The notes under the pieces were generated by a model, which ran no database searches, had not been told where the DNA came from, and was given only the letters and a program-made list of their open reading frames with translations. Both the position numbers and the translations under genes were made by a program. 64,000 bases of DNA, taken from positions 62,001 to 126,000 of the forward strand of contig JANWVT010000007.1 in NCBI GenBank assembly GCA_025056255.1. Direction: 5' to 3'. The stretch comes from Bernardetiaceae bacterium (GTDB lineage Bacteria > Bacteroidota > Bacteroidia > Cytophagales > Thermoflexibacteraceae). The stretch's first letter is position 1, and each line of letters begins with the position of its first letter. Shown piece after piece: positions 5,674 to 11,188 of this stretch.

Positions 5674-8409
5674 ATGCAAACGCTATTGTGGGCAATTTTA
5701 CCGTTGGCAGGGGCACTGATGGCTTGGCTGTTGCCGCTCAAATGGGGCAAAGCCGTTCCGGCAGTTGCCACGCTTGCCGCATTGGTCGGTTTTGGCTATA
5801 CCTACGCCATACAGGATTTTTCCCATGCCCTCAGTTGGCAGTGGGCGGCTGCACTTACCTTCCGCTGGGCAGCAGACGCTACGGCTGTTACTACCCTGCT
5901 GATGGTAAACTTCGTATCGCTTACCGTGCAGGTCTATTCATGGAGCTACATGCAGCACGAGCAACGCCAACGCGACTATTTCGCACTATTGGGGCTATTT
6001 ACCTTTGCCATGAACCTGCTAATTATCAGTGCCGATTTGCTTTCCCTGTTCTTTTGCTGGGAAATCGTCGGGTTTTGCAGTTGGGCACTGATTGGCTTTT
6101 GGCGCGAAAAAGCCCCTGCAGGCATCGCAGCCAACAAGGCTTTTCTCATCAACCGATTGGCAGATTTGGGCTTTCTGGCTGCCTTGGGCGGTATGTGGGC
6201 TGCTTATGGTTCATTTGACTTAGCGATACTGAGCCAACCTTCTGAAATGACCGTTTGGCATGGGCTGATTGGCGGCGGGCTATTGTTGGCAGCAATGGGC
6301 AAATCGGCACAGTTTCCGTTTTCGGTGTGGCTGCCCGATGCCATGCAAGGACCCACACCTGTTTCCGCACTGATGCACGCCGCTACGATGGTGGTGGCAG
6401 GTATTTTTCTACTGATTCGCGTTTTCCCGATTTTAGGTGTTGATATTCAAATGGCTGCGTTGTGGGTTGGCAGCTTTACCGCCTTGCTGGGGGCAGCGGC
6501 AGCCGCTACACAATACGACCTGAAACGCATTTTGGCTTATTCTACCATTTCGCAGTTGGGGCTGATGTTGGCAGCAGTCGGTGCGGGCAACCCCGATGCC
6601 GCATTGCTGCACCTGCTCACACATGGGTTCTACAAAGCTGCACTTTTTCTTTGTGCAGGAGTCATTATCCACACTGCACACACGCAAGACATCCGCCAAA
6701 TGGGCGGCTTGGCGCAGCAGCGGCTGCTGTTCATCATCTTCACTTTGGCAGGGGCAGGGCTGGCAGGCGTACCGCTGACAGCAGGCTTTTTGTCCAAAGA
6801 AACAGTTTTACATGCAAATCTGACAGGTCTTCAAGACCTGTCAGATTTGGGGCAATATGCAGGTTTATCCCGCTTGATTTGCTTCCTCATGTTACTCATC
6901 GCTTCGCTGGGGACGGCATTTTACACCGCCCGCATGTGGTTCTTGGTTTTCTATTCCCGCAAGCGAAATTTAGTTGATTATCAAGCCGCTACAACCTCAA
7001 CAGGCGAATATGCTGCACTAATTGCGCTCGCCGTTTTTATTCCGTTTATTGCTTTCTCACTTTCGCCGCTGCATTGGCTTGAAAGTCTGCTGACCTTCCG
7101 CACAGCCCTACCGCAAGAATCTGCGCCGCTGTGGTTGCTTATTGTTTCCCTTGCATTGCTGGCAGGCGGTGCGGCTTTTGCGTGGCGGATTTACTGCTGC
7201 CGCATCAATGCCTTGCAACAAGAGGCTGATTTGGCAGAGCTGCCCGCATGGCGCACGGCGTACAATTTTTTATATTTGGATACCATTTATTACCGACTCT
7301 GGCAGCATACAGAAACAGCTTTTGCCCGATTTTTGGCGTGGAGTCGTCGCACTGAGCCGCAGCAAACGCCAAAAGTGTGGATAGAAGGCAGCAAGTATCT
7401 GACATTCAGCGCTATTGGTCGGTGGTTGGAGCATCGCAGCCTGCCTGCGCTGGTCGCAGCAAGTCGGCGCGTGGCGGCTTGGGAGCAAACGCTGTTAGAC
7501 CGCCCGATAGACCTGTTGGCAAAAACGGCGGTTGTGGTCGGGCATGTGCAGGCATGGCTTGACCGCGTGGCAGTGGACGGTATCATTCGCGGCATTTATC
7601 AAACAATTGGCAGCATGGGCAAACGCATCCGAACCTTACAAAGCGGCAAAGTACAGAGCTACTACCTCATGGCACTGCTTTTCCTGATGTTGCTGCTGGC
7701 ACTGCTGCTCACGTCTTGCGAGCCGGTCAACGGCAAGCGGCAAGATACAACTGCACCGCAACGGGCAGAAGTTGCCCCGCTGCCCGACCTTGCTTCGGCA
7801 GTGAAGGAATTTACAGAAAACCGCAGCGTCTTACTGGCACAAGTCAGCAACTTGGCACAAGATACAGACAGTACCCTGCAAACGCTGCCCCCTGCCGACC
7901 CAAACAATGAGCCTTCGGCGGCAGACGATACGCCTGTTAACAATGCCCCTGCCAATAGCCCCGAAAGTTTCAAAAGCCCGTTGGAACAAAAAGTAGATGC
8001 GTGGGAAAGTGAATGGGAAGAAATTTTGATGCGCTACGAACAGATGCGGACATCCTTTCGCACCATGGCAAATGCACGCGATTACTATTTTGAGCAAATG
8101 AACCGCGAGACGGCGCAAATCTCCGACAGCCGCCTGCGCAAAGCCGAGTTCAAACGCAACAGTCAGGCGCTGGCAACTTTCAACCGCAGCTATCGGCAGT
8201 GGTATCGCGAGTTGGGCGAAATCCGACGACGGCTGTATCGCGGGCGCGACATCCGCCTGCTGATGCGCACCGCTGTCATCCGCGAACAGTTTGATGCCGA
8301 AGCATTGGGCAATGTGCGCAAATACATCCACGAAACGCGCAACCTGTTGCAGCAAACCGATTCGCTGCTGCGTGCCGGCAATGCAATTGCTACCGACAGA
8401 ATCAACTGA
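5674..8409 (+). CDS. nuoL: NADH-quinone oxidoreductase subunit L (NuoL) with a long C-terminal extension
   Basis: Residues 1 to about 680 form a complete NuoL-type antiporter subunit of complex I. It has many membrane helices, CWEIVGFCSW with the TM5 glutamate, GKSAQFPFSVWLPDAM, GPTPVSALMHAATMV, and the C-terminal amphipathic-helix region ending in LQSGKVQSYYL. NuoL is normally about 600-650 aa; here the last helix ends in LLALLLTSC (Cys682) and is followed by about 229 residues: a Pro/Ala/Asp-rich linker, then a charged, probably coiled-coil domain (about 770-905). No other nuo genes flank it. GC content looks clearly higher than in neighbouring genes. A hairpin repeat adds residues 381-392 in frame. 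The DabB-like CO2-uptake family is a less likely alternative because the full NuoL C-terminus is present. Confidence 0.85.
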   Translation: MQTLLWAILPLAGALMAWLLPLKWGKAVPAVATLAALVGFGYTYAIQDFSHALSWQWAAALTFRWAADATAVTTLLMVNFVSLTVQVYSWSYMQHEQRQRDYFALLGLFTFAMNLLIISADLLSLFFCWEIVGFCSWALIGFWREKAPAGIAANKAFLINRLADLGFLAALGGMWAAYGSFDLAILSQPSEMTVWHGLIGGGLLLAAMGKSAQFPFSVWLPDAMQGPTPVSALMHAATMVVAGIFLLIRVFPILGVDIQMAALWVGSFTALLGAAAAATQYDLKRILAYSTISQLGLMLAAVGAGNPDAALLHLLTHGFYKAALFLCAGVIIHTAHTQDIRQMGGLAQQRLLFIIFTLAGAGLAGVPLTAGFLSKETVLHANLTGLQDLSDLGQYAGLSRLICFLMLLIASLGTAFYTARMWFLVFYSRKRNLVDYQAATTSTGEYAALIALAVFIPFIAFSLSPLHWLESLLTFRTALPQESAPLWLLIVSLALLAGGAAFAWRIYCCRINALQQEADLAELPAWRTAYNFLYLDTIYYRLWQHTETAFARFLAWSRRTEPQQTPKVWIEGSKYLTFSAIGRWLEHRSLPALVAASRRVAAWEQTLLDRPIDLLAKTAVVVGHVQAWLDRVAVDGIIRGIYQTIGSMGKRIRTLQSGKVQSYYLMALLFLMLLLALLLTSCEPVNGKRQDTTAPQRAEVAPLPDLASAVKEFTENRSVLLAQVSNLAQDTDSTLQTLPPADPNNEPSAADDTPVNNAPANSPESFKSPLEQKVDAWESEWEEILMRYEQMRTSFRTMANARDYYFEQMNRETAQISDSRLRKAEFKRNSQALATFNRSYRQWYRELGEIRRRLYRGRDIRLLMRTAVIREQFDAEALGNVRKYIHETRNLLQQTDSLLRAGNAIATDRIN
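6815..6849. repeat. Perfect hairpin repeat inside nuoL
   Basis: The arms CAAATCTGACAGGTCTT (6815-6831) and AAGACCTGTCAGATTTG (6833-6849) are perfect reverse complements around a single C. The copy is read in frame as NLTGLQDLSDL between two membrane helices of NuoL. The core CTGACAGG...CCTGTCAG is shared with the hairpins at 2997 and 59030. Confidence 0.85.
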
Positions 8410-8509: not shown

Positions 8510-11188
8510 ATGCAGCAATATCGCTCTCGGTTAGTTATTCTACTCACGGCTTTTTGGCTTCTGACCTCAAAGACATCTTTTGCTCAACAGGATTTCACTG
8601 TTACTGGCAAAGTATTAGATACACAAGGTAAACCCGTAGTTGGCGCAAAAGTCTCCATAGAAAATAGCGCCTTTACCGATACAAACGAGAATGGCTACTT
8701 CTCTATTACGCTTTCTAAACCTATTGAACAACAGCCAAAAGAGGTGCGAGTATTGCGCCGACACATGCGCATCAAAGATGTTAAGTATCTGGCTAACGCT
8801 CGTGACTTTAGGATTCAGATGCAAGATGCGCCCGGATTTTTTCAGGGGCAAGTACTTTCTGCCGAAGGTGAACCACAGCCAGCAGCAGATGTGGTAATCA
8901 AAGTAGGCGGGCAATCGGAAACCGTAGCTACCGATGCGAAAGGCTTCTTCTTTACTCGCCTACCAGAAGACGTTCCTTTGACCAAAGACATATCTTTTAC
9001 AGTGAATAATGTTAGGATTCCTCCCGACAAAATCAAAATTTTCCCCAATGCGGGCTTTGTTATATTGCGCACTGCTAAGCAACCGCCGGCAACCACAGCC
9101 AATAAGCCAGCATTGGAAAACAATAAGAAGAATGAGATAGTAAGCGTTACAGTGTATGACGAGAGCTATTTACCTATACCCAACCTTAAATTAAAAGTAG
9201 ATGGCATTACTTACACTACCGACAACGAGGGTAAATTTGTTATCAAGGCATCACAGGTAGATGTGAGCAAGTTCAGCATAGAAGGTTACGAGATAGCTAA
9301 GTTTGATTTTGATACAGAAGGAAACTACGTATTCATTGTTATTAAGTCAGAAACTGCTGGCAAGCCAATAATACCGATGCGCGAAGCCTTAGACTCCACT
9401 GTTATAAATTATAGAGACGATTTCTACAGCATTATTAATGAGTTGGAACTGCGCAAGCAAATTCTGTCGGAGAAAAGCAACCAGATCCGAAGTGAAATGG
9501 AGCGCGTAGCAGAAAAACTCAACAATCAGCCAGATATTACTCCTTCTCAACGAGAAAATTTGAAAAAGTATTTGAAAAACCTTGAAATTGCATTGATAGA
9601 AAACGATGTGGCATATGAAGATGCACAGCAGAAATCGCAAGAACTCATCGCCCGGCTAAAATCAACGATTCTTGAAAAAGACGACCAAATATCTGCTGTA
9701 GAAAGCCAAAAGCAGATTACTATTCAAATTCTTTATGTTGTAGGCTTCATTGCCTTTATTTTATTGTTAGCTATCATATTTGGCTATCAGGCATTGCGCA
9801 AAATCAACCAGCAAAAACAGGAAATAGAACGACAGCGCGACGAGATTACCCAAGCCTACAACAACATCAAAACCCTCAGCGCTATTGGACAAAAAATTAC
9901 TGCCACACTCGACTTCAAAGCTTTAATCAGCACCATTCACTCTAACGTTATTTCCTTGTTAGATGCTACTATATTTGGAGTAGGTGTATTTAACGAGGCA
10001 GAGCAAAAAATAGAGTTCATGGATTTTATGGCAAGTGGTAGGCAGCAATCCTATCATTTTGAATCCATGAATGGCGCCAATCACTTTTCAGTATGGTGTC
10101 TAAAAAATCGCAAAGAAGTGATCATCAATAACCTCGCTGTAGACTATGCCAAGTACTTGAACGTAGCCAGTTATCAAGTAACAGACGACATGCCCAAATC
10201 GCTGCTGTATTTGCCACTTATTCGGGAAAATAAAGCTATTGGCGTTATTACTGTACAAAGTTTAAAGCCCAATGCCTACAGTGAGATTGACCTAAAAGTA
10301 TTGAGTACACTAGCGTCTTATATCTCTATTGCCTTAGATAACTCTAACGCGTACGAAATTATTCGTCGAAAAAATAGAGATATAACAGATAGCATTCGCT
10401 ATGCACAAACCATTCAAGAAGCAATGTTGCCCGGAAAAGCACAAATGCAGGAAGTTTTTGGCGAGCATTTTGTCATTTTCCGCCCTAAAGACATTGTTTC
10501 GGGCGATTTCTACTGGTTAGACAGACTAAAAAGCGATACCGAAGATAACGTTCATGTAATACCAACCCTTTCCGATGTAGGTAATAAAGTATTTTTTGCT
10601 ACCATCGACTGCACTGGGCATGGAGTGCCGGGTGGCTTTATGACCCTCATTGCCAATCAGCTGCTCAATGAAATGGTCAGCCTGCGAAAAATTCACGACC
10701 CTGCCATGGTTATTGAGCTGATGGACCGCAAAATTCGCAATATCCTCAAACAGCAAGACCGAGTAAATGACGATGGCATGGATGCTTCCCTTGCCTTAAT
10801 GGAGCGAATGGCAGATGGCAAGATGCGCATTGTATATGCCGGCGCGCGGCGTCCTTTGTATTTCTTCGTTGCCAAAGAAAATAAACTCTACTCGTTGAAA
10901 GGCGACAGGGCTTCCATAGGAGGACCCCAGCGAAAAGATGCCCGTTACAATCGCTACGAAATAATACTTAACAAAGGCGACATGATTTACATGCTGACAG
11001 ATGGTTTTGCCGACCAAAATAACCCCGACAAACAAAAGTTTGGTACTAAAAACCTTTGCGACATGCTCGAACTGCATGCCACCAAACCAGCAGACCAACA
11101 AAAAAGTCTCATAGAAGCCAGTTTAGACGCACACATGAATGGCTCAGAACAACGCGACGATATTACAGTGATAGGTATCCGCATCTGA
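8510..11188 (+). CDS. Membrane-bound SpoIIE/PP2C-type Ser/Thr phosphatase with GAF and carboxypeptidase-regulatory-like domains
   Basis: The start is placed at the ATG at 8510 because a signal peptide (residues 1-25, ending SFAQ) begins there; the frame is open further upstream, into the nuoL end, without a sensible N-terminus. Order in 892 aa: three carboxypeptidase-regulatory-like (Ig-like) domains (about 28-285) outside the membrane; a helical coiled-coil segment (about 300-400); one membrane helix (about 404-427); a short coiled coil; a GAF domain (about 450-600); and a SpoIIE PP2C domain (about 630-892) with VSGDFYWL, DCTGHGVPGGF and DGMDA metal-site motifs. Such proteins dephosphorylate anti-sigma-antagonist or SiaC-type partners. 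It sits 100 bp after nuoL and 5 bp before an LD-carboxypeptidase. Confidence 0.88.
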   Translation: MQQYRSRLVILLTAFWLLTSKTSFAQQDFTVTGKVLDTQGKPVVGAKVSIENSAFTDTNENGYFSITLSKPIEQQPKEVRVLRRHMRIKDVKYLANARDFRIQMQDAPGFFQGQVLSAEGEPQPAADVVIKVGGQSETVATDAKGFFFTRLPEDVPLTKDISFTVNNVRIPPDKIKIFPNAGFVILRTAKQPPATTANKPALENNKKNEIVSVTVYDESYLPIPNLKLKVDGITYTTDNEGKFVIKASQVDVSKFSIEGYEIAKFDFDTEGNYVFIVIKSETAGKPIIPMREALDSTVINYRDDFYSIINELELRKQILSEKSNQIRSEMERVAEKLNNQPDITPSQRENLKKYLKNLEIALIENDVAYEDAQQKSQELIARLKSTILEKDDQISAVESQKQITIQILYVVGFIAFILLLAIIFGYQALRKINQQKQEIERQRDEITQAYNNIKTLSAIGQKITATLDFKALISTIHSNVISLLDATIFGVGVFNEAEQKIEFMDFMASGRQQSYHFESMNGANHFSVWCLKNRKEVIINNLAVDYAKYLNVASYQVTDDMPKSLLYLPLIRENKAIGVITVQSLKPNAYSEIDLKVLSTLASYISIALDNSNAYEIIRRKNRDITDSIRYAQTIQEAMLPGKAQMQEVFGEHFVIFRPKDIVSGDFYWLDRLKSDTEDNVHVIPTLSDVGNKVFFATIDCTGHGVPGGFMTLIANQLLNEMVSLRKIHDPAMVIELMDRKIRNILKQQDRVNDDGMDASLALMERMADGKMRIVYAGARRPLYFFVAKENKLYSLKGDRASIGGPQRKDARYNRYEIILNKGDMIYMLTDGFADQNNPDKQKFGTKNLCDMLELHATKPADQQKSLIEASLDAHMNGSEQRDDITVIGIRI

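Follow-up and report, generated by a model that had tools for sequence, protein, structure and literature searches.

A NuoL-lipoprotein gene fusion with an invariant lipobox at the natural end of the complex I subunit

The Fusion Gene and Its Surroundings

A single open reading frame of 911 amino acids occupies positions 5674-8409 of the forward strand in the window (the whole stretch of 64,000 nucleotides that was analysed), and runs from an ATG to a TGA with zero internal stops. It encodes 681 residues of NuoL closing in the transmembrane helix TM16, then a lipobox (Leu679-Thr-Ser-Cys682), and finally 229 residues past the lipobox cysteine, the very number counted in an earlier note made from the letters of this DNA. 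That note had proposed that NuoL is fused to an extension here, and the fusion gene is real, confirmed by the reading of the frame, by profile matches and by congeneric genomes. Its parts, with the evidence for each, are the following:

5674..8409, + strand: nuoL-lipoprotein fusion gene, 911 amino acids; one open frame, with the fusion repeated in three congeneric genomes
5674..7716, + strand: NuoL core (residues 1-681), expected as the product if the chain is cut before Cys682; Proton_antipo_N/M, TIGR01974 and charged residues
7498..7644, + strand: predicted HL, the long helix that joins TM15 to TM16, residues 609-657; AlphaFold2 model of low local confidence, and the protein family
7651..7716, + strand: TM16, residues 660-681, with a proposed dual role as the h-region of a type II signal; AlphaFold2 model and the ends of relatives
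7669..7671, + strand: internal in-frame ATG, the alternative start of the earlier note; not conserved (absent in G001)
7708..7719, + strand: lipobox Leu679-Thr680-Ser681-Cys682; invariant in four species, with synonymous changes only in the Thr, Ser and Cys codons
7720..7788, + strand: disordered tether after the cysteine, residues 683-705; pLDDT mostly below 50
7789..7884, + strand: first helix of the extension, residues 706-737; structure prediction of the tail
7885..7977, + strand: variable linker rich in Pro, Ala and Asp, residues 738-768; low pLDDT in mid-linker, and the highest dN/dS in the N-terminal part of the extension
7978..8406, + strand: residues 769-911, a helical bundle domain with homologues among free lipoproteins; pLDDT mostly 80-97, dN/dS about 0.11

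The gene stands alone. No other nuo genes are adjacent, as had been noticed at once, and nuoD, H, K, L, M and N are scattered over this genome (G000). NuoD, H, K, M and N were sought there and found, while the only close match to NuoL in the whole genome is the fusion protein, the two weaker matches being NuoM and NuoN. Their places are C74 (nuoD), C15:49068 (nuoH), C41:42618 (nuoK), C85, which is the window (nuoL), C12:91601 (nuoM) and C12:7093 (nuoN). In the neighbourhoods that were read, those of nuoH, K, L, M and N, the membrane-arm genes are singletons amid unrelated genes, nuoK even being without a neighbouring nuoJ. In a congeneric genome (G003), an apparent lone nuoA (L044:682-1143) lies about 8 kb from nuoL.

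The NuoL Core and Its Natural C-terminus

Is the first part of the chain a genuine NuoL? The core matches the Pfam models Proton_antipo_N and Proton_antipo_M. It scores 414 bits with TIGR01974 (NDH_I_L), just above the cut-off of 407.5, and 442.6 bits with the equivalog NF005141, under that model's stricter cut-off of 556. Across an alignment of 26 NuoL proteins (the fusion protein and 25 others), the proton-path residues Glu130, Lys210, His235, Lys284, His313, Lys321 and Lys375 are invariant. Identity as the CO2-pump subunit DabB or as an Mrp subunit was considered and rejected, since the best family scores are those of NuoL models; the Mrp and NdhF3 models score far lower, as do the MrpA and DabB2 chains in a search of the PDB.

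Within the nuoL frame, a 25-base near-perfect palindrome, CTGACAGGTCTTCAAGACCTGTCAG (window 6820-6844), encodes a portion of an additional loop (NLTGLQDLSDLGQYAG). G002 has a similar loop, G003 and G001 do not, and the palindrome has the look of a palindromic element that was inserted in frame into the gene of a proton pump.

The NuoL C-terminus, made of HL followed by TM16, is present here, as judged by alignment to relatives and by the helices (609-657 and 660-681) of a low-confidence model. In this full-length AlphaFold2 model, whose local confidence is low, TM16 stops one residue ahead of Cys682. To compare end-points, we used as a ruler the column of Gln656, the first glutamine of a conserved QxGKVQ motif before TM16. 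All 22 other NuoL proteins aligned from the Cytophagales stop 24-27 residues past this column, in line with the earlier remark that known NuoL proteins end near this helix, and the residue ahead of the lipobox cysteine (Ser681 here) is number 26 from it in each of the four fusion proteins. Because of this coincidence, a cut before Cys682 would restore a NuoL of ordinary length. The uncut chain overshoots TM16 by the full 229 residues; ending right after TM16 holds for the predicted cleaved product only. A comparable tail was found in none of the 22 proteins from the order and in none of the best 150 of the 367 phylum genomes with a match, in which the NuoL open frames span about 595-700 amino acids.

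Predicted Structure of the Extension

Modelled alone, the tail comprises a short tether, a helix (706-737), a variable linker and a three-helix bundle (769-911). The structure prediction that had been proposed as a check of the extension thus gives a linker rich in Pro, Ala and Asp and four predicted helices. Searches of Pfam and NCBIfam assigned it no domain, and hits to the Pfam models ATG16, Mis14 and the like were discarded as coiled-coil noise. Foldseek gave no known fold with an E-value below 0.12. VIA-align reached Z-scores of up to 13.8, with generic helical bundles and spectrin repeats only, high scores being common for folds of this type according to the tool's own warning. A sequence search of the PDB with the tail profile returned mostly coiled coils and designed proteins, none of them convincing.

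Conservation Within the Genus

The same unbroken fusion occurs in three further congeneric genomes at 89, 86, and 59% identity, and hence in all four genomes of the genus, of which G001 is the most divergent; two of the other congeneric genomes are metagenome assemblies. None of these further copies contains a stop or a frameshift. Downstream, a gene for a phosphatase-like protein is common to all four. In the window this gene (8510-11188) encodes a large protein directly after the fusion. Judged by eye, the protein seems to have repeats of the carboxypeptidase-like kind, then a region of GAF type, and to end in a phosphatase of SpoIIE type.

Among the three closer species, dN/dS is 0.14-0.18 for the extension against 0.14-0.16 for the NuoL core; within the extension it is about 0.11 in the helical domain and highest (0.20-0.37) in the N-terminal part. 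These ratios indicate that the extension is under purifying selection. Could a sequencing or assembly artefact nevertheless have joined two genes? The genome is indeed a draft in 107 contigs, but the identical junction in four genomes and the codon-level purifying selection make this practically inconceivable. Assembly error is rejected by the congeneric genomes, and the frameshift or stop that the earlier note had named as fatal to its proposal is found in none of them.

The comparison of species bears just as directly on a separate synthesis of the lipoprotein, besides the fusion, by internal initiation inside nuoL at the ATG at 7615 or 7669. These codons stand at -34 and -16 from the cysteine in G000, G002, and G003. 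The lack of a Shine-Dalgarno sequence would be no argument against them, because Bacteroidia ribosomes fail to recognise such sequences (PMC9976891). Both ATGs are however missing in G001: there, the 66 codons before the cysteine include only GTG and TTG codons that are not conserved, and the nearest in-frame ATG lies 67 codons upstream. Internal initiation is for this reason very unlikely, and the ATG at 7669, once put forward as an equivalent route to the same product, is absent in the most divergent species.

Free-Standing Lipoprotein Homologues of the Tail

A search of 59 relatives gave a sole match to the tail outside the genus, in G056 (E 1.6e-8). The protein concerned is free-standing: it starts with MKTTKTIFIVCLMAIFPWLVISC-GG, a lipoprotein signal, continues with the tail domain and then carries a discoidin-like (NADase-type) domain. 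Once it was added to the profile, further members appeared in G107, G069, G041, G169, and G177, and a nine-row profile added others in G687 and G565, from other families. Each homologue outside the genus has a lipobox-like cysteine that ends an N-terminal hydrophobic signal ahead of the domain, and in G056, G107, G069, G041, G169, G177, and G687 it is a lipoprotein encoded separately, complete with signal peptide and lipobox. When the profile was built from the four fusion tails alone, hmmsearch gave E-values of 1.4e-14 (G107), 1.2e-12 (G056), 7e-11 (G069), and 1.3e-6 (G041), the matches in G169 and G177 being weak by themselves. Since shuffled copies reach 0.5 at best with the same profile, and Smith-Waterman Z-scores of the G001 tail against the homologues are 8-19, the homology indicated by these scores is not an effect of composition. 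The tail homologues make up a family, scattered in the Bacteroidota, of lipoproteins predicted to be of the signal peptidase II type. In the neighbourhoods of the free lipoprotein genes, neither nuo genes nor any common context were found. The suspicion that the extension might be a separate gene in homologues, and the fusion an assembly error, is therefore half right: separate genes do exist outside the genus, but the fusion within it is no error.

Three of the free lipoproteins (L049:8195-9400, L074:6704-7912, and L075:3212-4378) bear a C-terminal domain of the discoidin/NADase-translocation type, an assignment (PF25302, NF047619) that was profile-tested for L049 only and made by similarity for L074 and L075. 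Its presence suggests binding at the cell surface or envelope.

A more distant link leads to DUF2959 (PF11172). The window tail does not match this Pfam model; one member of the wider family does so at E 0.0014, and the G565 protein matches PF11172 at 1.7e-4 and the tail-family profile at 7e-10. In profile-profile comparison (hhalign), the wider sets A4 and A5 give a probability of 91% and a pair E-value of 9e-7, against a probability of 0.3% for the fusion tails alone. By these scores, the tail family is probably a distant branch of the DUF2959 lipoproteins, membership not being claimed for the fusion tails because they give no such signal alone. The literature found on DUF2959 amounts to a single, unrelated mention.

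The Lipobox and TM16 as a Signal Sequence

The lipobox at the end of the last NuoL helix, with which the earlier note began, was found as described (the Cys682 codon is TGC, 7717-7719) and is invariant in the genus. LTSC fits the pattern [LVI][ASTVI][GAS]C and is preceded by a hydrophobic helix whose n-side is positive, with Lys or Arg at -23, -29, -31, and -32 from the cysteine in each of the four species. Between G000 and G001, TM16 and the lipobox are 58% identical, yet LLTSC is unchanged despite saturated synonymous sites, the Thr and Ser codons differing silently. This candidate signal sequence is internal (residues 660-682), and not N-terminal as in an ordinary lipoprotein precursor.

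Its orientation can be deduced from the protein family. In NuoL proteins HL joins TM15 to TM16 on the cytoplasmic side (PMC7419157), so TM16 would run outward and the C-terminal tail would be periplasmic, the side already thought likely for the extension. Judged by this family topology, TM16 is oriented as a lipoprotein signal sequence is. The enzymes of the pathway, Lgt and LspA, are both encoded in the genome (lgt and lspA). Because the tail homologues elsewhere are free lipoproteins with signal peptides, we infer that the lipobox is an inherited processing site and not a chance pattern.

A Proposed Polyprotein

We consider it probable that the gene encodes a polyprotein, in which Lgt lipidates Cys682 and LspA cuts there, leaving a normal NuoL and a periplasmic helical-bundle lipoprotein. 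Such a gene would have arisen when a lipoprotein gene, including its lipobox, was joined in frame to nuoL and its signal peptide merged with TM16, an origin suggested by the homology of the tail to free-standing lipoproteins of the signal peptidase II type. Running from the cytoplasm outward, TM16 would expose LTSC on the periplasmic side, in the manner of a lipoprotein signal peptide. Cys682 would be lipidated by Lgt, after which LspA would cut between Ser681 and Cys682. The first product would be a NuoL of canonical length, 681 amino acids ending in ...LLLTS, destined for complex I, and the second a lipid-anchored periplasmic helical-bundle lipoprotein of 230 residues, made in an amount equal to NuoL. 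In this polytopic subunit of complex I, the final transmembrane helix may well be at once a pump helix and the signal of a lipoprotein released by signal peptidase II, possibly a new accessory subunit. As for the role of this lipoprotein, we can only guess at complex I assembly or an accessory function, at envelope tethering, or at a protein that is merely co-produced. Of the interpretation first given to the locus, the fusion, the lipobox and the likely periplasmic side have stood, as has release by signal peptidase II, supported as the leading option by homologues that are free lipoproteins and by a genus-wide fusion, with the cleavage itself predicted; the internal ATG at 7669 has not.

Several points weigh against the polyprotein. 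Some 15 transmembrane helices precede the lipobox, and TM16 may already be enclosed by other subunits when Lgt or LspA arrives. The support is at the level of sequence, and a conserved cysteine could serve lipidation without cutting, or have a structural reason. Literature searches, outside which most subscription journals lay, found no polytopic respiratory subunit whose end is cut by signal peptidase II, and no NuoL with a C-terminal extension and a lipoprotein.

The main rival is a chain that stays whole, whose extension would be a lasting helical domain in the periplasm, at the distal tip of complex I, and would act as a fused accessory subunit that would stabilise the antiporter tip or contact an envelope partner. 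Accessory subunits sit on complex I tips in other lineages; every species has a single open frame, the helical domain is conserved as well as confidently predicted, and a fusion yields a 1:1 ratio. This reading however leaves unexplained an exact lipobox with an invariant cysteine at the natural end of NuoL, its strict retention in a helix otherwise free to drift, and homologues that are lipoproteins and have their lipobox at the corresponding cysteine, and we hold it to be unlikely. Much more doubtful still is a Cys682 that is lipidated and left uncut, giving a NuoL with a lipid-anchored junction: selection would also keep the cysteine and the lipobox in that case, but LspA generally acts on lipidated prolipoproteins, the residues LTS at -3 to -1 fit its site, and no special feature that would block it was seen.

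Comparison with Known Systems

With NuoL, Nqo12 and ND5, the fusion core shares the conserved charged residues, the HL helix and TM16; it differs by the lipobox at the natural C-terminus, by the residues that follow and by the isolation of its gene. The free lipoproteins of the Bacteroidota (G056, G107, G069, G041, and G687) have the same helical domain right after the lipobox cysteine and share with the tail the motif YFxQ...IxxxxLRxxE, but they have N-terminal signal peptides of their own and are encoded by separate genes away from nuo genes. In the DUF2959 lipoproteins, too, a lipobox is followed by a helical domain of similar length, and the G565 protein bridges both profiles, although the Pfam model is not matched by the window tail and hhalign lends support with the wider alignment only. 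A lipobox-bearing periplasmic partner of a respiratory complex is also known in ActE of alternative complex III, which is a separate lipoprotein subunit with its lipobox (Leu21-Cys24) near its own N-terminus (PMC5928083).

If the polyprotein is cleaved, and the prediction is pinned to one peptide bond (Ser681/Cys682), then the reach of Lgt and LspA extends to a lipobox that follows the last of many membrane helices, a situation that would escape lipoprotein predictors, which scan N-termini only. Cleavage could also reveal a new lipoprotein partner of bacterial complex I, and would add to the cytochrome bc1 polyprotein a second means of producing a respiratory subunit and a periplasmic partner protein in equal amounts. 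In that precedent, fbcH of Bradyrhizobium, cytochrome b and cytochrome c1 are made as a polyprotein that is cut by signal peptidase I. Both systems combine a polytopic respiratory subunit and a periplasmic, membrane-anchored partner in one chain. In fbcH the partner is a haem protein of the same complex, whereas the fusion has a type II site and a putative partner of complex I; compared with the fbcH concept, it is new in its type II signal and in the complex concerned.
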